A DNA stretch of 29,757 nt from a virus. The first letter of the stretch is position 1, and each line of letters starts with the position of its first letter. Shown piece by piece: positions 386-26,080 of this stretch. The position numbers and the translations under genes are program-made. The DNA is taken from positions 1 through 29,757 of IMG/VR virus record IMGVR_UViG_3300023099_000016, one strand, 5' to 3'. The notes beneath the pieces were generated by a model, which was not told where the DNA came from, ran no database searches, and saw only the letters and a list, made by a program, of their open reading frames with translations.

Positions 386-889
386 TTAGTTCTCCGTGGA
401 TAGGATTTTCCAGATACTTCCGTTTTTTATCTGCTGAACGGTAGTCCTAGATACGCCATAATGCGCTGCAATTTGTGACCAACTGCGCGTATCGGCCTTA
501 ATGCTCCGCGCTTCCGAGATGTGAAGCTTTCCTCGACCGCCTTTTGAATACCCGGTCAATGGGTCAACCACGTAACCGTTCCGGCCTCTGGAATCCCTAT
601 CCCTAACATTCTGCTCCTGAGTGCCGAGATAAAGATGTTCTGGATTGATGCACAGCGGAACGTCGCACTTGTGCAATACGTGCAATTGGTTGGTGTCTTT
701 AAGGCCCTTGTGGAAAAGGAAAGACGCTCTGTGAGCGCCCTGCCGCTTTCCTTGGTAGTAGGTTGAACCGTAGCCTTTCGGCCCAATAGGGCCAGCCCAC
801 AACCAGCACCCCGTGTTCGGCTCCGTGTACACATCGGAAATACGTGTTTCGAAATTCCGCTTGGTCTTGGTTCCGAACATTCCGGGCAT
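386..889 (-). CDS. HNH homing-type endonuclease with C-terminal HTH
   Basis: The N-terminal part is an HNH_3-type nuclease: GCWLW at 27-31, an AHR motif with H53, then HKCDVPLC at 73-80 and INPEHL with N82 and H85. This matches the Hxx...C....CxNPxHL pattern of free-standing phage HNH enzymes. The C-terminal part (about 134-160) is a helix-turn-helix with IAAHYGVSRTTV, the DNA-recognition module often fused to such nucleases. It probably makes site-specific breaks and spreads as a selfish gene. It stands between the one-helix holin-like gene and the two-helix membrane gene, with gaps of a few bases, so it seems to have entered the lysis operon without breaking a frame. The start has only a weak ribosome binding site. 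Confidence 0.85.
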   Translation of the reverse strand: MPGMFGTKTKRNFETRISDVYTEPNTGCWLWAGPIGPKGYGSTYYQGKRQGAHRASFLFHKGLKDTNQLHVLHKCDVPLCINPEHLYLGTQEQNVRDRDSRGRNGYVVDPLTGYSKGGRGKLHISEARSIKADTRSWSQIAAHYGVSRTTVQQIKNGSIWKILSTEN

Positions 890-892
890 TTA

Positions 893-1285
893 TCAGTTCT
901 CTGTAAGGGACTTTGGGGCGCTGGTAGGCATTTTTGATTCTACCAGCTTTTCCATAGTTGGCTGAGAAATCTTGAAGTGCTGAACAGCCTGTGGAACAGA
1001 GGTTGTAACGTACTGCTGGGCTTTGGCAAGAACTTGCGCCTTGGCATTATCTGGCACGGTTCCGTCCTTATTGAGTTTGCCGTTCAGCACTTGTTGAATG
1101 GCCCAATTAAGACCCGAAGTTAGCGCAGACTGAAGAGCCTCACGGTGCTTTGCCTCAAGCTCCTTACCAGTGATGCGGGCATAGAGGATTGCTGCCCACG
1201 TCAGGAGCGCCGTTACGACCAGAGGAAGAATCGCTGCGACGACTTGAGCGATGATGTTGGATTGGATGAAGTCCCACAAGGTCAT
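893..1285 (-). CDS. Holin-like protein, one N-terminal membrane helix
   Basis: The protein has about 130 residues with a single long hydrophobic helix near residues 13-38, a charged KELEAKHREAL segment and a soluble, helical C-terminal half. This resembles the LLH-type holins (holin superfamily 6) that often accompany phage endolysins. I chose ATG at 1285, since AAGG lies 9 bases upstream; a GTG two codons earlier (1291) overlaps the endolysin stop but is too close to the ribosome binding site. The likely role is to form holes or release endolysin at the inner membrane. Function is inferred from topology and from the endolysin immediately upstream. Confidence 0.65.
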   Translation of the reverse strand: MTLWDFIQSNIIAQVVAAILPLVVTALLTWAAILYARITGKELEAKHREALQSALTSGLNWAIQQVLNGKLNKDGTVPDNAKAQVLAKAQQYVTTSVPQAVQHFKISQPTMEKLVESKMPTSAPKSLTEN

Positions 1286-1287
1286 GG

Positions 1288-1992
1288 TCACTTACCTTTC
1301 GAAAGGAGGGAGAGGAGGAAATCGGCAATCGCGGCAATAGCCTTCTGCCACCAGGATTGCTTGGGAAGGATCGGTTCGTCGTTAGGATTCCAGACCTCCA
1401 CAGGCTCCTCCTTTGGTGGAATTGGTGCAATGGGTGGGGAATGCTCGGCAATGGGCTTAGCAGCCTCCCGCAACTTCATTAGGATAGGAGCTACACCCAA
1501 CTGCTTGTCTACGTGCTCAGGATCGTACTTGCCATCTGCAACGTACTTGCCCTTCACATACTGATCGGTACCAGCCCAGAGGTAGGGAGAGGGAAGCCCC
1601 TTCTTTCGATAGCCCAAACCATTATACCGCTCTAGAATGTCCAGAGTACCGGCAATCGACCAATCCTTGTTCTTGGCTGCATAGGGCGGGCAGACAACCA
1701 AAGCGTCCTTCGCGGCCTCTTCCCATGTCGAGAATGGCCCGCGACCAGCAGGAACTAGAGTCGTCTTCTTGCCGGTGCCGATAATCTTCTGGCCGTTGTG
1801 CAGGACACCTTTGAAGTCGCCAGAGGACTCACGGTAGTGGATGACACCAATAACGTCCCACGGAACGCCTGTGGCCTCGGAAACAGCCTCGTAGCGCTCG
1901 CGATGGGCCTCGATCTTGGCGGCCTGAGCATTAATGGCCGTTGAGCGAGTAAACTTGGCGCGCTCCCAGCGCTCGGCGTTCGTCCCTGCCAT
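1288..1992 (-). CDS. Endolysin, lysozyme-like muramidase/transglycosylase
   Basis: The protein has 234 residues. The motif VIHYRESSGDF at 50-60, with E55 as likely catalytic acid, followed by GRGPFSTWEEAAKDAL, resembles small lysozyme-like enzymes of phages and bacteria that cut the glycan strands of peptidoglycan. GTLDILERYNGLGYRKKGLPSPYLWAGT fits the conserved second half of that fold (quoted in parts: ERYNGLGY, PSPYLWAG). After the catalytic domain (to about 170) comes a proline-rich linker (183-211) and a hydrophobic or amphipathic helix (214-231). That C-terminal helix is unusual and could tether the enzyme to the inner membrane. There is no N-terminal signal peptide, so release should depend on the neighbouring holin. 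GGGAG lies 7 bases before the ATG. Confidence 0.75.
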   Translation of the reverse strand: MAGTNAERWERAKFTRSTAINAQAAKIEAHRERYEAVSEATGVPWDVIGVIHYRESSGDFKGVLHNGQKIIGTGKKTTLVPAGRGPFSTWEEAAKDALVVCPPYAAKNKDWSIAGTLDILERYNGLGYRKKGLPSPYLWAGTDQYVKGKYVADGKYDPEHVDKQLGVAPILMKLREAAKPIAEHSPPIAPIPPKEEPVEVWNPNDEPILPKQSWWQKAIAAIADFLLSLLSKGK

Positions 1993-2015: not shown

Positions 2016-3269
2016 TCACATCTCACTCACAATTGCAGCCTTAAGGCGCTTCAGGGAAAGCATGCCCCCGACAGACTGAAGGACATGCAGATTATTGGTG
2101 ATAGGCTGTGCCGACCGACGAAGAAGGCGCCTGACATCTTCAGCAGTCGCATCTGGAAGATAGCTCTTGATGATTGCAGCAGCGCCAGCCAAGTGAGGTC
2201 CGGAGAATGACCCGCCTGAGCCAAACCCGTATTTGTTCGGACCAATGGCGCACATCACATCGTCCGCATCCGCAGTTTGCCCTCCGGTCATTACATCCGA
2301 GGGCAATGAAACACTGAGGGTATTCACGCGTCGATCCCCACCAGGGGCCAGCATGGTCGTATAGTAGTTGTTCGCATTGAATGGAGAGGGTTCCCCCAAC
2401 ACATTCACAGCCGAACCAACCACAGTTTCATGTAAGCTGGCATGAAAGACCGAAGCGGCGCGACCTTCCCAATTCCCGACAACGGTTGTGACAATCACGT
2501 TGTGATCCCATACTGCCCGCTCAATCGCATCGGAAAAGTCTTTGAGCATGCCGTTTTCATGCGCTGAACTTGCAGGCGTACGAGCCATGAAACGCAACGG
2601 ATTCACGTTCGGAGCGTAATAGTCAGGCCACAAAGGGTAAAGCTGATATTGCGGATCATTGGGCGCTGGCCAGAAGGCATCATTGACAGCCGCCATGCCT
2701 GCAATGTGAATAACCTCTGCGCCCTGTGCCACAGCCAGATCAATGGCCTCGTCAATCGTAGCCAGAGAGGCCCTGACGGGGATAATCCGGGCTCGTGCAA
2801 ACACACCCGCCGTACCAATAGAGTTGTGCTGGGCGGCAATGACGGACGCAGCGCATTGACCGTGGGCATTAGAGCTTGTCGGCACGATCCCATCCCAGAC
2901 GGGCGGATTCGTATTCGTGCCGCCCTCAACGGTGTTGATGCCGGTTTCGTAGACCCCGGCCAGATCAGGATGTCCCTGACTACCGGGGTAAACGTCAATC
3001 ACTGCCACCTTAACATCACGCGGGGCATCGCCTAGAACACTGGCGTATGTTTCTCCCTCAAGGATTTGACGCATAGGCCACTGATAGCGGCTATAAGCAT
3101 CTGCCGTCGATGCAGTGCTATCCACCTGTGCATTCGTAACGACATAATCCGCCGAAACGCAATTTGTGTACACTGCTGCATCTGGGGATGATCTCGTATT
3201 GCAGGTCATAGCTGCCGAAGCAGGCAGAGCCATGAGAATAAACGCCGCAATTGAGATAATGGATTTCAT
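2016..3269 (-). CDS. Secreted subtilisin-like serine protease (S8 family)
   Basis: The protein has 417 residues. Residues 1-19 form a Sec signal peptide (KS, a hydrophobic core, then ALPASA before A20). The S8 catalytic elements appear in order: VAVIDVYPG with D92, NAHGQ with H136, the oxyanion region TTVVGN with N266, and GGSFSGPHLAGAA with S354 aligned to the Ser of the usual GTSMAxPHVAG. The family's core runs from about 85 to 390. The gene overlaps the fibre gene by ATGA (3266-3269) and is followed after 23 bases by the endolysin, so it belongs to the late operon. It may process the fibre, act in lysis, or degrade host surface or periplasmic proteins. The protease call is strong; the role is unknown. 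Confidence 0.9.
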   Translation of the reverse strand: MKSIISIAAFILMALPASAAMTCNTRSSPDAAVYTNCVSADYVVTNAQVDSTASTADAYSRYQWPMRQILEGETYASVLGDAPRDVKVAVIDVYPGSQGHPDLAGVYETGINTVEGGTNTNPPVWDGIVPTSSNAHGQCAASVIAAQHNSIGTAGVFARARIIPVRASLATIDEAIDLAVAQGAEVIHIAGMAAVNDAFWPAPNDPQYQLYPLWPDYYAPNVNPLRFMARTPASSAHENGMLKDFSDAIERAVWDHNVIVTTVVGNWEGRAASVFHASLHETVVGSAVNVLGEPSPFNANNYYTTMLAPGGDRRVNTLSVSLPSDVMTGGQTADADDVMCAIGPNKYGFGSGGSFSGPHLAGAAAIIKSYLPDATAEDVRRLLRRSAQPITNNLHVLQSVGGMLSLKRLKAAIVSEM

Positions 3270-4300
3270 GCAAGTCCGTCCTGTCCGCGCCGGTCGATCC
3301 AGCCGAGAGTTACCATATTGGAAGTTGTAGGAGTGCCAGTTGTATTGGTCTGGGCGAAGTAAATCTGCCTGGAAGCATTCGTGAAGAAAACGGGAGGGGG
3401 CGTCACGACCTGAATATCCGCGCTATCGCCCGCACCAGTGCCAATCGTCAGAATAGTTGCGGTAACGCCCCCCTGAGCAGCAGAGCCGACCGATATGTCA
3501 GCAAGGACAGAAACCCCAACATCTACACGGAAGCGCAAGATAGGGGCTACAACGATGCCAGCAGGCACCGACAGGGCGAACAGAGCGGCGGCAGCAGCGG
3601 CAGTGTTATTTCTATCGGTTATAGACACAGAGCGCATGAAAACATCGCCGTTCTGATAGAACGGAATGACAGTGCCCAACTCGCGCAAGATCGATCCAAT
3701 ACGTCGAAACTGGGTGTAATTAGCGGGTAATGTCGGTGCTGTTGCGGACAGCGAAAACAGCACATCTACAACACCTGTGTCTGGGCGCCTGATGGCAAAG
3801 ACATGGTATGTGTTGTTACCCACAACACCAGTATCGAGTCCGCCCTGATTGGTTCCCACAGCCCATGTCGCATCAGTACGCTTGATGATTGAATTGGCGA
3901 GAACCAAAGACGAGGCGCCTGACGTATCGATAGTGACGCCAGAAGCAATTCGAATGTCATTCGTAAGGTCGCCAGCATCGTTCGCCAGGGCCATGCCAAA
4001 GATGGCACCGCGGATTTCGCTCAGAAGAGTCAGAGTGCCGCTGTAGTAGGGGGCGGTCCATGTGCGGGTGGTTGCGGTGGGTAGGCCGGAAAGGTCGAAG
4101 GCAACTAGCTTGGTTTGATCCGTACTGTCACGAAGGCGGAAGAGCGAGGTCTTGAACCAGCGCTTGAGCATGCCTGCCAAGTTACGGAAGGCATTATCCA
4201 CCATGTAAGGGTACATTTGGCCCTGAACGATGGTCGTTCCAGAGATATCGGTGTTGTTGTTGTCAACCTCATCGAATTGACCGATTTCATTTTGGGCCAT
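3266..4300 (-). CDS. Tail fibre/appendage protein
   Basis: The protein has 344 residues. The first about 100 look like a virion-attachment segment with helices around LAGMLKRWFK. The middle contains the TWAVGTNQGGLDTG and TYHVFAIRRPDTGVVDVLFS pattern, which recurs in short-tailed phage fibre proteins and in tail-fibre parts of prophages. The rest is Ala, Val and Thr rich and probably beta-structured, ending in a VTLGWIDRRGQ segment. It follows the SleB-type virion lysin and is coupled to the subtilase downstream. It should act in host-surface binding. AAGG lies 6 bases before the start. Receptor specificity cannot be read from sequence. Confidence 0.7.
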   Translation of the reverse strand: MAQNEIGQFDEVDNNNTDISGTTIVQGQMYPYMVDNAFRNLAGMLKRWFKTSLFRLRDSTDQTKLVAFDLSGLPTATTRTWTAPYYSGTLTLLSEIRGAIFGMALANDAGDLTNDIRIASGVTIDTSGASSLVLANSIIKRTDATWAVGTNQGGLDTGVVGNNTYHVFAIRRPDTGVVDVLFSLSATAPTLPANYTQFRRIGSILRELGTVIPFYQNGDVFMRSVSITDRNNTAAAAAALFALSVPAGIVVAPILRFRVDVGVSVLADISVGSAAQGGVTATILTIGTGAGDSADIQVVTPPPVFFTNASRQIYFAQTNTTGTPTTSNMVTLGWIDRRGQDGLA

Positions 4301-4366: not shown

Positions 4367-5959
4367 TCACCCAATTCGATATCCTCCAGAACCGTAAAGA
4401 GAGGCCAAAATTGCAGGGTCAAGTTCCATCGCAATGAGCCTGTTTCCATCCCCACTACTTGTCTCTCCTCTCACCCGGTCTTCAACAGTCTGGGAACCTC
4501 GTGCACTTGCGTTTGCCGCCTCATAAGCAGCGGATGGGCTATAGCCTTGAGCCCTGAAGGCCTGAATTGGCGTCAGGCTTGGTGGCGCTCTGTAGGAGTT
4601 GGCGCCATTCACAACAGCGCGGAGCGGGAGCCCCGCATTCTGCGCAGCCGCTATCTGTGGCAGCATAGCTGATGTTACGGCCATGCCTTGGGGGATTCTG
4701 ACTGGATTTGTGGCGCTACCGACCATCGGACGCGCATTCGCTGGCCTAGGGGACGGGGCTACGTTGGCGGCAAACGTGGACACAGACGGAATGGCAGGAA
4801 GAGGAAGTGCAGCGAACTGCTGGCGCGTAAGTCCAGCAGGCCCATTGATTGAGACATCATAAGCCTGAGCAGCATTGCCGGGGGCAAGCCGCGCCGGAAT
4901 GGTTGTCGCAACGCGCTGCCCTAGCTGTTCCGCCCGCTGCGCATTGATATTGGCTGCTGAGCTACCAACAGACGGTATCGACGGGATAGGCGGCAACGCT
5001 CGCTCTACGTTGCTCTGATTAGCCGTCAGTGCCGCTCTACGGGCAGCGTCGTTGATCTGCGCAGCCGTGGGCCGTTGAGCGGCGCTATTGAACGGAACCG
5101 ACTGCACAACGCGAGTGGTTGGCGGTTGTCCAATATTAGACGGCGGAAGTTCAGGGAGGCGAGCACGAGCCGGGGATGGCGTGAGTGAGCCTAGACCACC
5201 CGTTACCGTTGTCGGCGTCATATCTGGGATATGGTACGAATAGATATTGCCGCCATCAGCCGTTAGGCGAGGCGTGACAGGGTTCTGCGTCGAAGCCAGC
5301 ATATCGACAGCACGAGTTGCATTCACATTCCCACGCGGCGCATTGAGTGCGGCCATGGAAGTCGTGACGATGTCGGGCGCTGAAGGCCTGCGCTGGGGAA
5401 GTGGAACGTTCGGGGACGGCGTAACCTGTGCCCGTTGAGCGTCAACGCTTTGAAGCGGGTTCCTCATCTGCCGTAGATCAGGCGTCATTGTTGCGGGCAT
5501 AGGGGCCACACGGGGTCCAACAACATCTGTTAGTGTCGCAACCTCTGGCAGTTCACCGGGCGGGATTAGAGGCCCATAGGCAGATTGCGGAACATCGCCA
5601 GAGGCGTAGAAGCGGTGACCTCCGATGGTCGCCACCGGCTTCATGTTCCTAGCCCAAGACGGCATTACATCGCCGCTTAGGAAATGATCGGCGCCGGGCA
5701 CAGGGTTTGGGATAGTCCCTGCCTGCACACCATTTACAATGCGCTCAACCTTTGCCCTGAGTGATGGGTCTTGCTGTGCTCGCTTTGCACCACTACCAGG
5801 ATTGGTGTATCCATCAAAGCCAGACTTGATAACCTGATCAGGTGTTTGGCCTCTGGCTGCGGCTCTCTGTTGGATCGCCCACGCTGCCGCGATCAGACCG
5901 GCATCACCTTCGCCGCCCGATTCAGCAATCAATGTATCGATGAGGTCTTTAGAGGCCAT
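4367..5959 (-). CDS. Virion-associated SleB-type cell-wall hydrolase with disordered tail
   Basis: Residues 1-122 match the SleB/Hydrolase_2 fold: LIAESGGEGDAGLIAAAWAI with candidate catalytic E13, SGFDGYTN, then GADHFLSG with H92, W102 and IGGHRFYA with H115. Such domains cut peptidoglycan and, in this genomic place, help the ejecting phage cross the wall. The remaining about 400 residues are rich in Pro, Ala, Asn, Gln and Arg with recurring LPxIPSV-like pieces, and are predicted to be disordered. The extreme C-terminus (DRVRGETSSGDGNRL, then LDPAILASLYG) is more ordered. The next gene (fibre) starts 66 bases downstream. The upstream gap carries a plus-strand gene. The length is far greater than the catalytic domain needs. 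Confidence 0.8.
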   Translation of the reverse strand: MASKDLIDTLIAESGGEGDAGLIAAAWAIQQRAAARGQTPDQVIKSGFDGYTNPGSGAKRAQQDPSLRAKVERIVNGVQAGTIPNPVPGADHFLSGDVMPSWARNMKPVATIGGHRFYASGDVPQSAYGPLIPPGELPEVATLTDVVGPRVAPMPATMTPDLRQMRNPLQSVDAQRAQVTPSPNVPLPQRRPSAPDIVTTSMAALNAPRGNVNATRAVDMLASTQNPVTPRLTADGGNIYSYHIPDMTPTTVTGGLGSLTPSPARARLPELPPSNIGQPPTTRVVQSVPFNSAAQRPTAAQINDAARRAALTANQSNVERALPPIPSIPSVGSSAANINAQRAEQLGQRVATTIPARLAPGNAAQAYDVSINGPAGLTRQQFAALPLPAIPSVSTFAANVAPSPRPANARPMVGSATNPVRIPQGMAVTSAMLPQIAAAQNAGLPLRAVVNGANSYRAPPSLTPIQAFRAQGYSPSAAYEAANASARGSQTVEDRVRGETSSGDGNRLIAMELDPAILASLYGSGGYRIG

Positions 5960-5987
5960 TGACGTTTCCCCAAGCTAGGGCGATATT
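5959..5987 (+). promoter_or_regulatory. Candidate sigma70-type promoter on the plus strand
   Basis: TTGACG (5959-5964) and GATATT (5982-5987) are separated by exactly 17 bases and read rightward, opposite to all neighbours. The predicted start near 5994 lies about 20 bases before a plus-strand reading frame with a good ribosome binding site. The -35 box overlaps the first base of the start codon of the minus-strand lysin gene. The match is 5/6 and 4/6 to consensus; no expression evidence is available. Confidence 0.45.
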
Positions 5988-6012
5988 CCGGTTACGAGAG
6001 ATGAGGGATGAA

Positions 6013-6126
6013 ATGAACGAGAAACCAACAGACGGATTTGCAGGACGAGGCGCCCAATGGTGGTTCGGAGTCATTGCGATGGGCGTTCTATTTGGCCTGA
6101 TGGCGTGGTTCAAAACCATCTCCTAG
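6013..6126 (+). CDS. Plus-strand 37-residue single-helix membrane peptide
   Basis: This is the only plausible plus-strand gene. The ATG at 6013 is preceded by GAGGG with a 5-base spacer, and a promoter candidate lies at 5959-5987. The product begins MNEKPTDGF, has a membrane helix at about 15-33 (WWFGVIAMGVLFGLMAWF) and ends KTIS. An in-frame ATG at 6001 would add four residues. Its TAG (6124-6126) overlaps the TAG of the 745-residue ejection protein on the other strand inside a CCTAGG palindrome, so the two genes converge tail to tail. It fills an otherwise empty 163-base gap. Function is unknown; an inserted small gene (moron) or a regulator of lysis or superinfection is possible. Confidence 0.5.
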   Translation: MNEKPTDGFAGRGAQWWFGVIAMGVLFGLMAWFKTIS

Positions 6127-8360
6127 GTTCCTGAGTAGCTTCCAGCGCCGTTTACCGTAACACGAAGAGGCGCAGTCGGCTGCGGCTGCATTCCTGCCGC
6201 TCCGCCCATAACAGCACCTCTTGCCGCACCCTGTAGCCCGATCTGGATAGCCTCAAGGGCCGTTCTGTGCTCGGCGCTCAGGGCCGCATTCTGAATTGCT
6301 CTCTGGAGGGCAGCAGGGTCACCGGACGCAAGAACCTCACCGATACGAGCCATAACCCGTTCGTCCACTTTCTTGCCAAGTACCTGAAGGCCTCTACGAC
6401 CAGCCGCTACAAGCCCTGCCATAGATGCGGCTTGGGTCCAGTCACCGCCAGAAGCAAAATACCCACCAGCGCCGCCAACCACGCCAGCCGATATAAGCTG
6501 TTGAGCGGTTGAGGAATTGCCACTCACAGCGCTCCGAAGCTGATCGACAATGGCTTCGACACGAACGAAAGCCTCAAGCTCACGTGCCTTATGAGCGCCT
6601 AGAGCAAGTTCATTCATCTCTCTGCGGGCCTGCGAGCCAAAAACCTGATTGATCACGTTTACGCGGTCACGAGACGCCTTGATTGTGTCGATCAGTTCAG
6701 ACGCATAACCGATAGAGAATGCATCGCGCTCGGCCTGAGTGAACTGGCCAAATGCCTTCCGCGCTTCCGGAATAGCCCTGGGCGACGTAGCGAACTGTTT
6801 GCCCGCATCAATAGCATCTTCAGCCCCGAAGAACTGCGCAGCACCACGCCGAGCCTGATTAAATTCCGGAACAGCATTGTCGAGCACGCTATTCAACTGG
6901 CGCCGCATATCCCCGATTTGACCAGCAAGGAGATTGTCACCATTCCGCTGTGCTAGCTCACTAGAATTACGGAGATTGCGCTGCACGATGTCCCAAAACT
7001 CAAGGTTTGGGAGAGCATATGATCCATCTGGTAGCTGCCGCAGTGTAACAGTGCCATCAGGCCTGAAAACAAAGGGGTTTCTGATCGCATTTCCACCGCT
7101 AACCGCCGCCGCGTTCGTTGAGGTTTGCTCAGCCGCATTGATAGCCTGCCTAAAGGGGTCGGCCTGCATGAGGTTGCGGATTTCGGGTGTCCAGATAGCT
7201 TTTGCCTGTGGAGCATCATACGCAGCCCGGTAGGCGGGCTGGTTTGCTTTCCTTGCACCCTGACGTAGAGCATCCTGAAGCGCGAGATCGTCAGTCGCGC
7301 CATTCATTAGACGCTGGATGAATCTCACGGCACGAGGGCCTTGGGTTTCAAACCTGTCTGATACCGTCGCGTTCAAAGACTGCGCTGCTTCTGGTGACAC
7401 ATTAGACGCGGTTCGGGCGAGGGTCCGAAGTGGCGCCCCGCCTCTATCTGCATTGATTACCGGGGTTCCGGCCTGCGCTGCTACTGCCTCATCAGCCTGA
7501 GTCATACCTAGCCGTGCTGGACCATTCTCACCCTGCTGAAGAGCGAGGCCAATACGCCGCGTTACCTCATTCTCTCGGTTGAAGGCGGTTTGTACAGGAC
7601 GGATTACATTGTCATAGACCGCACCGCTGCCTCGCTTGATCAGTTCCCCTCCCAACGGAATAGCTGCCGAAATAAGAGAGGGGCCAACAGCATCAGCCAG
7701 TGCATCTGTAGGTTTCGCCCCACGAACCATATTATCGGCTGCGGTAAGGCCAAGCGTAGACAGGCCAGAGTTAAGAAGTTGACCGCCTTGAAACCCTGCC
7801 GTTGCGTTAGCAACCGAACCAGTGACCGGACTGGATGCAATTCGAGGAAGAAGGTTTCCGGTCAGACCAAGCGCATTAGCGCCAGTCGTTGATAGTCCAC
7901 CAACGCCGAAAGAGCCAAGGGCGCCGCCAATATTACCGCTTACGCTGGCGACAGGGTTTGCGGCAGCAAGTTCTTCTCGACGCTTCCGGACAGCCTCACG
8001 AGCCTGATTGTAATCTCCACCTGTGAGTTGAGCACCAATGCCTACAAGATTATCTGAAATGCCCTGAGCCATCGGACCGATGACAGGAATGCCGTTAACC
8101 AAACCGCCGAGGGTTGCAGAGGTAGCGCCGAGAATATCGGGTCGCGCTGGCTGCTGGACGGGCAATGCAGGCGCTGCCGTATCAGTGCCGGGGCCGAACC
8201 GGCTCATGCTAGATGCAGCGGCTAGAGCTTCGTCCTGCTGCGGCGCCGCGCCAAGAGATGCGGCAATCTCATCCACCGTAGCCTGCTGCTGTTCAGGGGA
8301 CATGCGGAGAAATTCGTCTCCAACTGTCACGGTCTGATTGCCGATTGTGAGCTTTGCCAT
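6123..8360 (-). CDS. Large internal virion (DNA-ejection) protein
   Basis: The protein has 745 residues. It starts with LTIGNQTVTVGDEFLRMSPE, an N-terminal signature I associate with alphaproteobacterial phage internal proteins. Residues about 70-250 are Gly/Ala rich with hydrophobic stretches (LGGLVNGIPVIGPMAQG, GALGSFGVGGL), and the middle is helical and charged. About 620-700 carries another Gly/Ala hydrophobic stretch. Such amphipathic proteins are packed in the short-tailed virion and form a channel across the envelope, like T7 gp15/gp16 or P22 gp16/gp20. No lysozyme motif was seen. It directly follows the 363-residue protein (TAA then ATG). Confidence 0.6.
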   Translation of the reverse strand: MAKLTIGNQTVTVGDEFLRMSPEQQQATVDEIAASLGAAPQQDEALAAASSMSRFGPGTDTAAPALPVQQPARPDILGATSATLGGLVNGIPVIGPMAQGISDNLVGIGAQLTGGDYNQAREAVRKRREELAAANPVASVSGNIGGALGSFGVGGLSTTGANALGLTGNLLPRIASSPVTGSVANATAGFQGGQLLNSGLSTLGLTAADNMVRGAKPTDALADAVGPSLISAAIPLGGELIKRGSGAVYDNVIRPVQTAFNRENEVTRRIGLALQQGENGPARLGMTQADEAVAAQAGTPVINADRGGAPLRTLARTASNVSPEAAQSLNATVSDRFETQGPRAVRFIQRLMNGATDDLALQDALRQGARKANQPAYRAAYDAPQAKAIWTPEIRNLMQADPFRQAINAAEQTSTNAAAVSGGNAIRNPFVFRPDGTVTLRQLPDGSYALPNLEFWDIVQRNLRNSSELAQRNGDNLLAGQIGDMRRQLNSVLDNAVPEFNQARRGAAQFFGAEDAIDAGKQFATSPRAIPEARKAFGQFTQAERDAFSIGYASELIDTIKASRDRVNVINQVFGSQARREMNELALGAHKARELEAFVRVEAIVDQLRSAVSGNSSTAQQLISAGVVGGAGGYFASGGDWTQAASMAGLVAAGRRGLQVLGKKVDERVMARIGEVLASGDPAALQRAIQNAALSAEHRTALEAIQIGLQGAARGAVMGGAAGMQPQPTAPLRVTVNGAGSYSGT

Positions 8361-16863: not shown

Positions 16864-19038
16864 TTAGCCGATATCGCCGCCTAGCTGCACATCGCCAACC
16901 TGCCCCGTGTTTGCCGGGGCGCCTGCGGTTGCTAGTTCCTTCTGAAGGTTGATCTTTGCGTAGCCAAGCTCACGAGCCAAATCGAGTTCATCCACAAGGC
17001 TTGCCCGCTTGATATCGAACTGACCTGCAATACGCTCTCGTTCCAGTTGCGCATCGATTTCTATCTGTCGCATCTTCTCTTGGGACTTCAGATAGTCGCT
17101 GCGCTCTTCGGCTGCGGTATTGGCAGCGAGTTCCGCCATCTTATACTCATGGGCCTGCTGCTGTTCCTGCATCTTGGCCTCTTGCTTCTTTTGTTCGATT
17201 TGAAGCTGGGGAGGCGGCTGGCTCTTCGCCTGTTGTGCTTGAGCCTTGAGGTTCGCCACCTTCGTTTCATCGAAATCAATGTAATAGAATTCGGAGTCGC
17301 GAATCCCAGCAGCCTCCGTTTGCTGGCGCATGGTCTCGACAATCTTGGGCAGCATGTCGATAGCGTCTTCCGTGGCACCATTCTGCATAAGCTGGCTAGC
17401 CAAGGTCATCTGGTTAGAGGCCACACCCTGAAGCATCATCATGTCGCGTTGGCGGTTGCCCGTTCCAAGGCCGAGATTGATGGTAATGCCCATATCGGCA
17501 TTCCAGTGCTTCGGGTTAACTTCAATCAGCTTCTTGCCGATGCGAAGGTTACGTGGGCGATCCTGGTGCTTGATCTCCATCTTGAGGAGGGCGCGGAAGA
17601 TAGGCGTCCAGCCAAGCTCGGCCATATCACGCGCAACCATTTCTGTCTGACTGTAACTAGCGTCGTGGTTGTTCTGGTTGGCGGTAGCGGTCTGGTTCTG
17701 AAGCACATCTGGGTCAAGCGCCATTGCCTGACGGCTCTGCCCTGTACGCTTGGCCAGCATATCGTCAGCATAGGCCAGGGCTTCATAGCCATGGTTGGCC
17801 ACAAAGGGCACCGGAAGAGGCGTCACACTAGCACCGGGCTTACCAAACACGTGTTCCCCGAAGGTCGGCGAGAACAAAGCATCGGGATTGACGATTTCAC
17901 CCTGAACGAACATGCGCGGGTTATTCGATGCATAGGTATTGTCGAAGACCTGACGGATCATGGCCGTCTTCATCTTCTGGATAGGCATCGTGGCGTCTGC
18001 TAGGGACTTGCCAGCAAACTTATGCGGCACTGGTTCCCACGGGATGGAGTAGAACAATTGTTCGTCTTCCCAGACCTCCCAGTCGAGAAGTTCGCCCCCA
18101 CTCTCGGAACCGGCATAGATGATGCGCACGGTCTCAGCCATGCCATCGTCATCAACGTCCACTTCCATCATGATCTCCCAACGGTCAATCAGTTCTGTGG
18201 ATTTGTCCGTTGCATCATCGGTGTCGCGATAGTTCTGACGCGCATAGTCTTCCGGCGTATCGTCATCATCCGCGCCGATATTCTCAATCAGCTTACGGTC
18301 AAAGCCCTCCTTGATCAGGTCGGAGCGTGTAGTCGGCTCTCGATGGGCTCTGAAGCGTGATTCTTCAATCGTCGTAGCATCTGGGTCGAGAAAGAAGTTC
18401 TCAGGTGGAATAACCTCAAGGCGGCGCCTGCTCTTGCGGCACATACGCCGTAGCTTCACCTCGTGGACGTTGACCTCCATTTCCGTGACAACGCCCGTCT
18501 CAAGGTCTTGGACGGGCATCATCTCCGTGGTCGTGGTCTGATTGGTGATCTCGACTTCAGGGTCTTGCTCCAGAAGTGCCAGTTGCTCATCGCTCAACCC
18601 GTCATGGAAGCTAACCTTGTATTCCGGGTTATCGTCGTTCCAGAGCTTGATAATGGCGTACTTGCATAGACCCGCGTCAACGATGGAGTCACGGACGATC
18701 TTGTAGCCAGGGTTATCCTTGAGGAATACGTAGTTCAGGAGATGTGTGGCATTCTCTGCATCATCATCGTCGTCAATACCAACCGGCTCTGCAAGCACCA
18801 TGCGATTGGAGCCCAGAAACACATCAACAAGCTGAGGCGTCATCCAGCTAAGCGTATCGTCAACGTCCATCGACATAACGGACGAACGGCCCTTCTCGGA
18901 CTTTAGATCGTTCATCACGCCATTGAAGTATTCTATGGCTTTCTGTCGATCCGTCGCCACCTCGGAGGATGAGGTTGACTCACTGGATTTGATGGCCTTC
19001 TGCACCATTCCTTTGAGGATGTCGTTTGTGATGGGCAT
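16864..19038 (-). CDS. Portal protein
   Basis: The protein has 724 residues. It shows the sequence pattern of P22/SU10-class portals: VMSMDVDDTLSWMTPQLVDVF near the start, RRLEVIPPENFFLDPDAT, the clip/stem region with DRWEIMMEVDVDDDG, and FAGKSLADATMPIQKMKTAMIRQ (quoted in pieces: GKSLADATMPIQK). The C-terminal about 130 residues are a Gln/Lys/Glu-rich coiled coil, the barrel-type extension. Twelve copies form the DNA gate at one vertex and bind the terminase. It starts inside the TerL stop (TAATG) and is large, as in P22 (about 725). Confidence 0.88.
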   Translation of the reverse strand: MPITNDILKGMVQKAIKSSESTSSSEVATDRQKAIEYFNGVMNDLKSEKGRSSVMSMDVDDTLSWMTPQLVDVFLGSNRMVLAEPVGIDDDDDAENATHLLNYVFLKDNPGYKIVRDSIVDAGLCKYAIIKLWNDDNPEYKVSFHDGLSDEQLALLEQDPEVEITNQTTTTEMMPVQDLETGVVTEMEVNVHEVKLRRMCRKSRRRLEVIPPENFFLDPDATTIEESRFRAHREPTTRSDLIKEGFDRKLIENIGADDDDTPEDYARQNYRDTDDATDKSTELIDRWEIMMEVDVDDDGMAETVRIIYAGSESGGELLDWEVWEDEQLFYSIPWEPVPHKFAGKSLADATMPIQKMKTAMIRQVFDNTYASNNPRMFVQGEIVNPDALFSPTFGEHVFGKPGASVTPLPVPFVANHGYEALAYADDMLAKRTGQSRQAMALDPDVLQNQTATANQNNHDASYSQTEMVARDMAELGWTPIFRALLKMEIKHQDRPRNLRIGKKLIEVNPKHWNADMGITINLGLGTGNRQRDMMMLQGVASNQMTLASQLMQNGATEDAIDMLPKIVETMRQQTEAAGIRDSEFYYIDFDETKVANLKAQAQQAKSQPPPQLQIEQKKQEAKMQEQQQAHEYKMAELAANTAAEERSDYLKSQEKMRQIEIDAQLERERIAGQFDIKRASLVDELDLARELGYAKINLQKELATAGAPANTGQVGDVQLGGDIG

Positions 19039-20585: not shown

Positions 20586-20811
20586 CTAGCGCCTCTTCAT
20601 GGTTGATTGTGACTGCTCCGCTAAGTTCAACTGCCTGAAGATCGGGCATGACTTTCTTCAACAGACCGAGGCCAGCAGTCACCTGAGAGGAGCTCATTTC
20701 TCTTACTCCCTCAGCATGTTCGATAAGAGCATTGAGTATATTGCTATTTTGGATTTTAACCCGATGCGATTCGGGCATCGTAAACCCTGCTGTTCTTCCT
20801 CTTGCTGCCAT
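20572..20811 (-). CDS. terS: Terminase small subunit
   Basis: I place the start at ATG 20811 (79 residues), where GAGAGG lies 6 bases upstream. The product then begins MAARGRTAGFTMPESHRVKI, the usual start of this small-terminase family, followed by QNSNILNALIEHAEG and SSSQVTAGLGLLKKVMPDLQ. The frame is open further up to 20892, but that extension runs into an intrinsic terminator and has no good ribosome binding site. The protein recognises phage DNA for packaging and recruits the large subunit, whose gene overlaps it by 14 bases. It is the first gene of the packaging module. Confidence 0.85.
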   Translation of the reverse strand: MAARGRTAGFTMPESHRVKIQNSNILNALIEHAEGVREMSSSQVTAGLGLLKKVMPDLQAVELSGAVTINHEEALDALE

Positions 20812-25500: not shown

Positions 25501-25754
25501 TCTCTTGCACTCCACGAGTTTCCGACCTTCGTTAGTCGCTTTGAATCGTTCGGCCCCCAATAAATATTCTTATCGCCACCCCACCAGATAGCATCTCCCA
25601 AATCTGGTTCATCTTCTTGCGGAAGGGCGTAAACGAATGTTTCATCAAACCAGTTTGGCCTATACTCTGACATGACCCGATACCGAACGACTGTCAGCCC
25701 TGTCTCTGGGAGAGTCACCATTTCCCGCTCAAGGATGTTACCTCCGCCGCTCAT
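25497..25754 (-). CDS. Small acidic protein, unknown (85 residues)
   Basis: Starts MSGGGNILEREMVTLPETGL and has several Trp/Tyr (WFDETFVYALP, DAIWWGGDKNIYWGPND), probably beta-rich. It is coupled to the lipoprotein gene by ATGA (25751-25754). No family recognised. Confidence 0.5.
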   Translation of the reverse strand: MSGGGNILEREMVTLPETGLTVVRYRVMSEYRPNWFDETFVYALPQEDEPDLGDAIWWGGDKNIYWGPNDSKRLTKVGNSWSARE

Positions 25755-26080
25755 AGCCAGATGACCTCATTATTTGGACCACAGTCAAAAATTGCAAACA
25801 CCGCTTGGCAAATTGGTTTCGGCGGAGGAGGCGGCACATACACAGTCTCAGGAACGGCTATAGGCTCTATCTCTGCTACTGTGGTAGGTTCTGGTGGTGA
25901 AACTGGCTGTACGGGGCTCTCTGTTGATTGTAGGGGCTTAGGAATGGTTGAGGGTGGCGAAGTTATCGAGGCGCGATACTCGTAAGCCGCTCTCGATGAT
26001 GCTCCGGGGTTAATCAGGTCGTTCAGATCGCATGCCGTGAGTGTTGGTGCGATGGCGAAAGGGAGAAGCAGCCGGATCAT
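25751..26080 (-). CDS. Proline-rich lipoprotein
   Basis: The protein has 109 residues. MIRLLLPFAIAPTLTAC is a type-II signal peptide with lipobox LTAC and lipidated C17. Position +2 is Asp, which in enteric bacteria keeps lipoproteins in the inner membrane. Residues 41-90 form a long Pro-rich arm (PPSTIPKP, PVSPPEP, VPPPPPKP), followed by a short end with C91 and C100, a possible disulfide. Rz1-type outer spanins are Pro-rich lipoproteins, but this gene is far from the lysis genes and has the Asp signal, so superinfection exclusion or envelope modification is as likely. It overlaps neighbours on both sides by ATGA. Confidence 0.7.
   Translation of the reverse strand: MIRLLLPFAIAPTLTACDLNDLINPGASSRAAYEYRASITSPPSTIPKPLQSTESPVQPVSPPEPTTVAEIEPIAVPETVYVPPPPPKPICQAVFAIFDCGPNNEVIWL

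Follow-up and report, generated by a model that had tools for sequence, protein, structure and literature searches.

Subtilases in phages

Subtilases are already known from phages, and most of them look cytoplasmic. Published examples include the subtilisin-like gp42 of the Paenibacillus phages Jimmer1/2, which appears as a table entry (PMC4168068), and a tail sheath with a subtilase-like domain from which the triad is absent (PMC13118943), unlike the intact subtilase described here. The compact subtilases of Moorella phage MTATph1, of the Bacillus phages Goe3, SP-15 and FADO, and of most of the 61 viral-contig loci considered below share the S8 catalytic residues of the latter, but they are about 300-340 amino acids long, have no signal peptide and are apparently cytoplasmic. 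The few that were inspected lie among replication, methylation or nucleotide-metabolism genes, away from lysis. The MTATph1 gene is found near a replicative helicase gene and the compact subtilase gene of L092 near a ribonucleotide reductase gene. Our literature searches returned no function for phage subtilases, no paper on Microcystis phage Mae-JY35 and none describing an exported phage subtilase, be it between fibre and lysis genes or elsewhere. A gene of this kind in that position had been pointed out in an earlier note on the DNA analysed here, a window of 29,757 bases. The window is a virus contig recorded in IMG/VR, perhaps only part of a genome.

Identity and predicted fold

The subtilase gene (2016-3269, 417 amino acids) is a complete ATG-to-stop reading frame on the minus strand, a detail not given in the earlier note, while the plus-strand frame is full of stops. 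Assignment to family S8, as claimed there, was confirmed by the Pfam profile Peptidase_S8 (PF00082), which at 67.8 bits (E 1.3e-18) far exceeded its cut-off of 21.8 over residues 85-395 and profile positions 3-280 of 288, and was recovered again in a whole-record search. PHROG 3677, annotated as 'protease', also matched (E 3.1e-16). The ordered catalytic set proposed in the note is correctly numbered: Asp92 (2994-2996, within VAVID), His136 (2862-2864, within NAHGQ), the oxyanion-hole Asn266 (2472-2474, within VGNW) and the nucleophile Ser354 (2208-2210, within GGSFSGPHLAG), all encoded on the minus strand, did not vary among 30 aligned subtilases of viral-contig and bacterial origin. The motifs around these residues are atypical, with DVY for DTG, HGQ for HGT and GGSFS for GTSMA, and hence the canonical signature of classical subtilisins is not present. 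The catalytic residues themselves are unchanged, and HGQ also occurs in mirolase, an S8 enzyme of solved structure; the deviations therefore count against the narrow classical-subtilisin subgroup and not against S8, to which the protein belongs with near certainty. Given the divergent active-site surroundings, proteolytic activity is best described as likely.

Structure prediction also supported the subtilisin fold. The AlphaFold2 model, built from a 30-sequence subtilase alignment, reached a pTM of 0.73 and a mean pLDDT of 67, with core blocks at pLDDT 80-97 and with the N terminus (residues 10-60) and two longer loops poorly modelled. The catalytic domain comprises codons 57-417 (2019-3101, minus strand), and VIA-align comparisons with solved subtilases, covering model residues 56-417, gave Z scores of 31-34 over 254-300 residues. 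The match to Pro21717 (5yl7) had a Z of 33.6 over 281 residues at 2.6 A, that to StmPr1 a Z of 33.3, and many subtilisins stood at about 32. Foldseek searches with the same model against solved subtilases produced a best E of 8.5e-15 and many values below 1e-12. The structural alignment would also agree with a spatial clustering of the catalytic residues.

Other identities were considered. A T7SS mycosin was rejected on a score of 65.9 bits, far below the cut-off of 278.75 for the NCBIfam equivalog TIGR03921. A PADLOC 'subtilase' match of P0001 (E 7.9e-6), which might suggest a defence role, is probably generic to S8, and the orthologue described below has no such match. The earlier note had contrasted the gene with prohead proteases, the usual phage proteases in its account, and the gene does differ from them: no head-maturation profile matched (only PHROG 3677), a signal peptide is present, and the position is wrong for a prohead protease, 11 kb from the capsid gene and adjoining the lysis genes. 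However, the generalization itself does not extend to annotated phage subtilases, whose names and, where inspected, positions are not those of prohead proteases.

Signal peptide and N-terminal extension

A classical Sec signal peptide (MKSIISIAAFILMALPASA) precedes the S8 domain. Codons 1-20 (3210-3269, minus strand; MKSIISIAAFILMALPASAA) have the n-h-c form typical of SPase I substrates, with one lysine (K2), a hydrophobic core, PASAA and a polar start. The call is based on this anatomy and on a hydropathy test, in which the best 12-residue Kyte-Doolittle mean of the core was 2.91, a value surpassed by no other protein of the window except two small membrane proteins. Cleavage by SPase I at ASA/A or SAA/M is probable, and the PASAAMTC cleavage region is conserved in the Mae-JY35 orthologue, whose signal peptide, read from the annotated start, has no basic n-region residue. 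No lipobox was found ahead of C23.

The signal peptide is followed by a short extension (codons 21-56; 3102-3209, minus strand) that contains C23 and C37 and was modelled with low confidence. The roughly 36 residues between the cleavage site and the domain are too few for a standard I9 propeptide, and Pfam returned no I9 match in the protein. Cysteines 23, 37, 139 and 340 are all kept in the orthologue, which is consistent with an oxidising compartment.

Late operon and neighbouring genes

The minus-strand late genes run in the order terminase, portal, scaffold, major head protein, virion and ejection proteins, a 530-amino-acid protein, fibre-like protein, subtilase, endolysin, holin and small membrane proteins, so that the late position between fibre and endolysin given in the earlier note holds. 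The 530-amino-acid product (4367-5959, minus strand) is a virion or lysis protein with an N-terminal cell-wall hydrolase (SleB-like) domain, matched by the endolysin family PHROG 938 (E 3.7e-15) and, below cut-off, by Pfam Hydrolase_2. The fibre-like gene (3266-4300, minus strand, 344 amino acids) matches PHROG 13925, of unknown function (E 5e-7), and is 40-43% identical to relatives in L130 and L131; its stop overlaps the subtilase start by 4 nt, ATGA (TGCATGAAA). Downstream, the endolysin-like gene (1288-1992, minus strand, 234 amino acids) has 44 viral-contig relatives and is 53% identical to a peptidoglycan-binding protein of Bradyrhizobium phage ppBjS10J-1. It adjoins a holin-like gene (893-1291, minus strand) for 132 amino acids with an N-terminal transmembrane stretch, which matches PHROG 17576, of unknown function (E 5.1e-19); a holin-like gene lies beside the endolysin in relatives as well. 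The fibre and endolysin labels come from synteny and from weak or relative-based matches, as the Pfam search gave no match for either gene.

An HNH endonuclease gene with a helix-turn-helix (386-889, minus strand; Pfam HNH_3, E 9.3e-8) sits between the holin gene and the next membrane gene. It is an insertion in the lysis cassette, and the close relative L006 has no gene there. A 109-residue proline-rich putative lipoprotein (MIRLLLPFAIAPTLTAC...) resembling outer-membrane spanins is encoded distant from the lysis genes (25751-26080, minus strand).

The portal is nearest to those of Rhizobium phages (39%) and the endolysin, as mentioned above, to that of a Bradyrhizobium phage (53%), so the host of this apparently podophage-like virus is probably an alphaproteobacterium and perhaps a member of the Hyphomicrobiales.

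The orthologue in Microcystis phage Mae-JY35

Among 50,697 phage records a single full-length relative was found, XAI96528.1 of Mae-JY35 (PP438426.1), with 53-54% identity. Annotated as a 'hypothetical protein', it shares the full length, the signal peptide, the four catalytic residues and the four cysteines. An intact copy thus occupies the same position in a second phage, whose gene order is again fibre, subtilase and endolysin, although fibre stop and subtilase start share 1 nt there instead of 4 nt. The flanking genes are different: the two fibres had no similarity in our comparison, and the Mae-JY35 endolysin is an Amidase_2 enzyme unrelated to that of the window. This suggests that the protease is retained on its own account. 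The same comparison bears on one of three roles proposed in the earlier note, cleavage of the fibre, which now appears the least likely of them, behind cleavage of envelope proteins during lysis and of host surface proteins. Fibre cleavage or maturation does not fit with fibres that are unrelated while the proteases are 54% identical, nor with an exported enzyme kept apart from virion assembly in the cytoplasm.

Two virion proteins could be aligned between the phages at the same BLAST cut-off, and their identity (28-30%) is below that of the subtilase. Identity between the two subtilase genes is 63%, 72% and 31% at codon positions 1, 2 and 3, respectively. This pattern is that of purifying selection and points to a protein under constraint. 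It bears on the view that the gene is a recently acquired bacterial subtilase, inactive or without function for the phage, for which the divergent active-site surroundings and the rarity of the subtilase could be cited. In addition to the codon pattern, the intact reading frame and an orthologue with all catalytic residues at the same position speak against a passenger. Likewise, no close cellular homologue came up in a genome_contigs scan or in three draws of about 390 Pseudomonadota genomes each, one at the level of phylum around a Marinobacterium genome and the others at the levels of order and class around a genome that bears the endolysin. Any subtilases retrieved were distant, and the order search, which came back empty, had no positive control. 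We therefore regard a passenger as very improbable; the subtilase is a conserved cargo of the slot between fibre and lysis genes and not a decayed remnant.

Strong terminator-like hairpins were detected in Mae-JY35 just before the fibre gene (18032-18049) and just after the subtilase gene (20629-20650). The stretch examined there holds 10 terminator-like sites, compared with 5.4 on average in shuffled sequence, whereas no such excess was observed in the window. The bracketed fibre and subtilase genes may therefore form a unit of their own, and co-transcription of subtilase and endolysin would not be required in that phage. Such an arrangement could agree with lysogenic conversion, in which a moron-like secreted protease would be expressed from the prophage for nutrition of the lysogen, competition or protection from other phages. 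Related phages are temperate, with an integrase in RHph_I1_23 and a repressor in Mae-JY35, and only a minority of phages have the subtilase, as could be expected of such a gene. However, in each of the two phages the fibre gene ends within the start of the subtilase gene, which favours late translation coupled to that of the fibre, and the scan detected no promoter upstream of the subtilase on its own strand. Lysogenic conversion hence seems rather doubtful.

The terminase of Mae-JY35 has its nearest counterparts (61-66%) in phages that infect Sulfitobacter, Rhizobium and Paracoccus. Microcystis, the host on record, may thus be wrong; a more likely host is an alphaproteobacterium that accompanies the cyanobacterium.

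The same slot in other relatives

The 44 viral loci bearing relatives of the window endolysin were searched for further copies. No subtilase was found by phmmer in their fetched stretches or by a Pfam model search of 26 whole records of endolysin relatives. In one close relative, L006 (record G001), the endolysin is 91% and the holin 85% identical to those of the window, and the slot is taken by a pectate-lyase-like protein. Another beta-helix protein, with weaker matches, fills it in L008, while in L007 and L009 the endolysin directly follows the fibre. In L131, found via the fibre, there is a further fibre together with an ORF that is beta-helix-like by eye. The subtilase thus represents an optional cargo in a slot used by surface-active proteins.

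These relatives inform two alternatives. One of them is a periplasmic lysis helper that would degrade envelope proteins, for instance lipoproteins or porins that anchor the outer membrane, so as to bring down the last barrier once the endolysin has acted, and would so reach a spanin-like end by another route. Predicted export and a gene adjoining endolysin and holin fit with this role. However, G001 has nearly the same endolysin and holin and no subtilase, from which it follows that this lysis module does not need one, and in Mae-JY35 a terminator-like hairpin separates the subtilase from the lysis genes. We consider a lysis helper unlikely, and a spanin substitute in particular unlikely for this module in view of L006.

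The other alternative is a virion-associated protease, carried on tail or fibre, which would open a path through surface protein at entry in place of a tailspike. Its appeal lies in the tailspike-like genes that occupy the slot in L006, L008 and, by eye, L131. Nevertheless, a cleavable Sec signal peptide would direct the protein away from assembly in the cytoplasm, no virion-binding domain accompanies the catalytic one, and the neighbouring fibres of the two phages are unrelated, which makes this location quite improbable.

Proposed role

Our preferred reading, held tentatively and somewhat short of being probable, is that of an active, Sec-exported S8 subtilase that is late cargo of the fibre-to-lysis slot, is freed at lysis and cuts envelope or surface proteins of the host. 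Synthesis would fall late in infection, alongside that of the fibre; the enzyme would then enter the periplasm and lose its signal peptide to SPase I, and its four conserved cysteines could form disulphides in that compartment. It would accumulate until holin and endolysin open the cell, and would then act on proteins of the host envelope or surface. Such cleavage may keep progeny from being trapped, either by loosening the envelope or by ridding debris and nearby cells of receptors. The exchange of the slot with tailspike-like genes makes action at the host surface the most natural reading, and the subtilase could be seen as a freely diffusing equivalent of the tailspike depolymerases encoded in this slot by relatives. 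A more specific form is conceivable but on the unlikely side. In it, the protease, co-produced with the fibre and set free by lysis after its export, would remove a protein receptor or surface layer from debris and neighbours, and so do by proteolysis what the tailspike depolymerases of sister phages do.

An exported subtilase whose gene overlaps that of the fibre, kept at one site by two phages whose fibres and endolysins are unrelated, offers a clean genetic test. The question posed by the pair is how a secreted protease benefits a phage: by speeding up lysis, by releasing progeny or by serving the lysogen.

Comparison with known systems

Subtilase-directed scans found no close relatives in viral contigs, and a broader profile retrieved 61 distant S8 loci (L059-L119), in a survey based on two sequence patterns that is not a census. 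Nearly all of the about 60 other S8 proteins of viral contigs are compact, at about 300-340 amino acids, and have no signal-like N terminus; by a heuristic, only two (L083 and L117) have one. The L083 protein (5589-7082 of IMGVR_UViG_3300001580_000497) combines it with hydrophobic C-terminal segments, and its 10.5 kb contig, perhaps from an archaeal virus, encodes a DNA polymerase of phage type and an ATPase similar to M13 protein I. Searches with the L083 subtilase matched 69 phage records, many from Bacillus phages, and Foldseek revealed further phage subtilases in BFVD. The rarity claimed in the earlier note therefore applies, among the proteins surveyed, to the exported form, while phage subtilases as such, being present in phages of Bacillus, Moorella and others, are not rare.

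Secreted bacterial subtilases, namely mirolase (8ehe), Pro21717 (5yl7), StmPr1 (9grg) and subtilisin BPN', share the fold and the catalytic set. Mirolase is the best sequence match among solved structures and has both HGQ and NTNPP in common with the phage protein. However, identity is about 27% or less, these are cellular genes, and they usually have a propeptide, for which the phage protein has no room. The beta-helix tailspike-like genes of L006 and L008 lie in the same slot between fibre and endolysin and are surface-degrading as a class, but they have another fold, are of a polysaccharide-degrading type, show no signal peptide and are not homologous to the subtilase. As nearly all of the other S8 proteins from viral contigs are compact and without a signal peptide, the exported subtilase of the fibre-lysis slot represents an unusual variant among phage subtilases.
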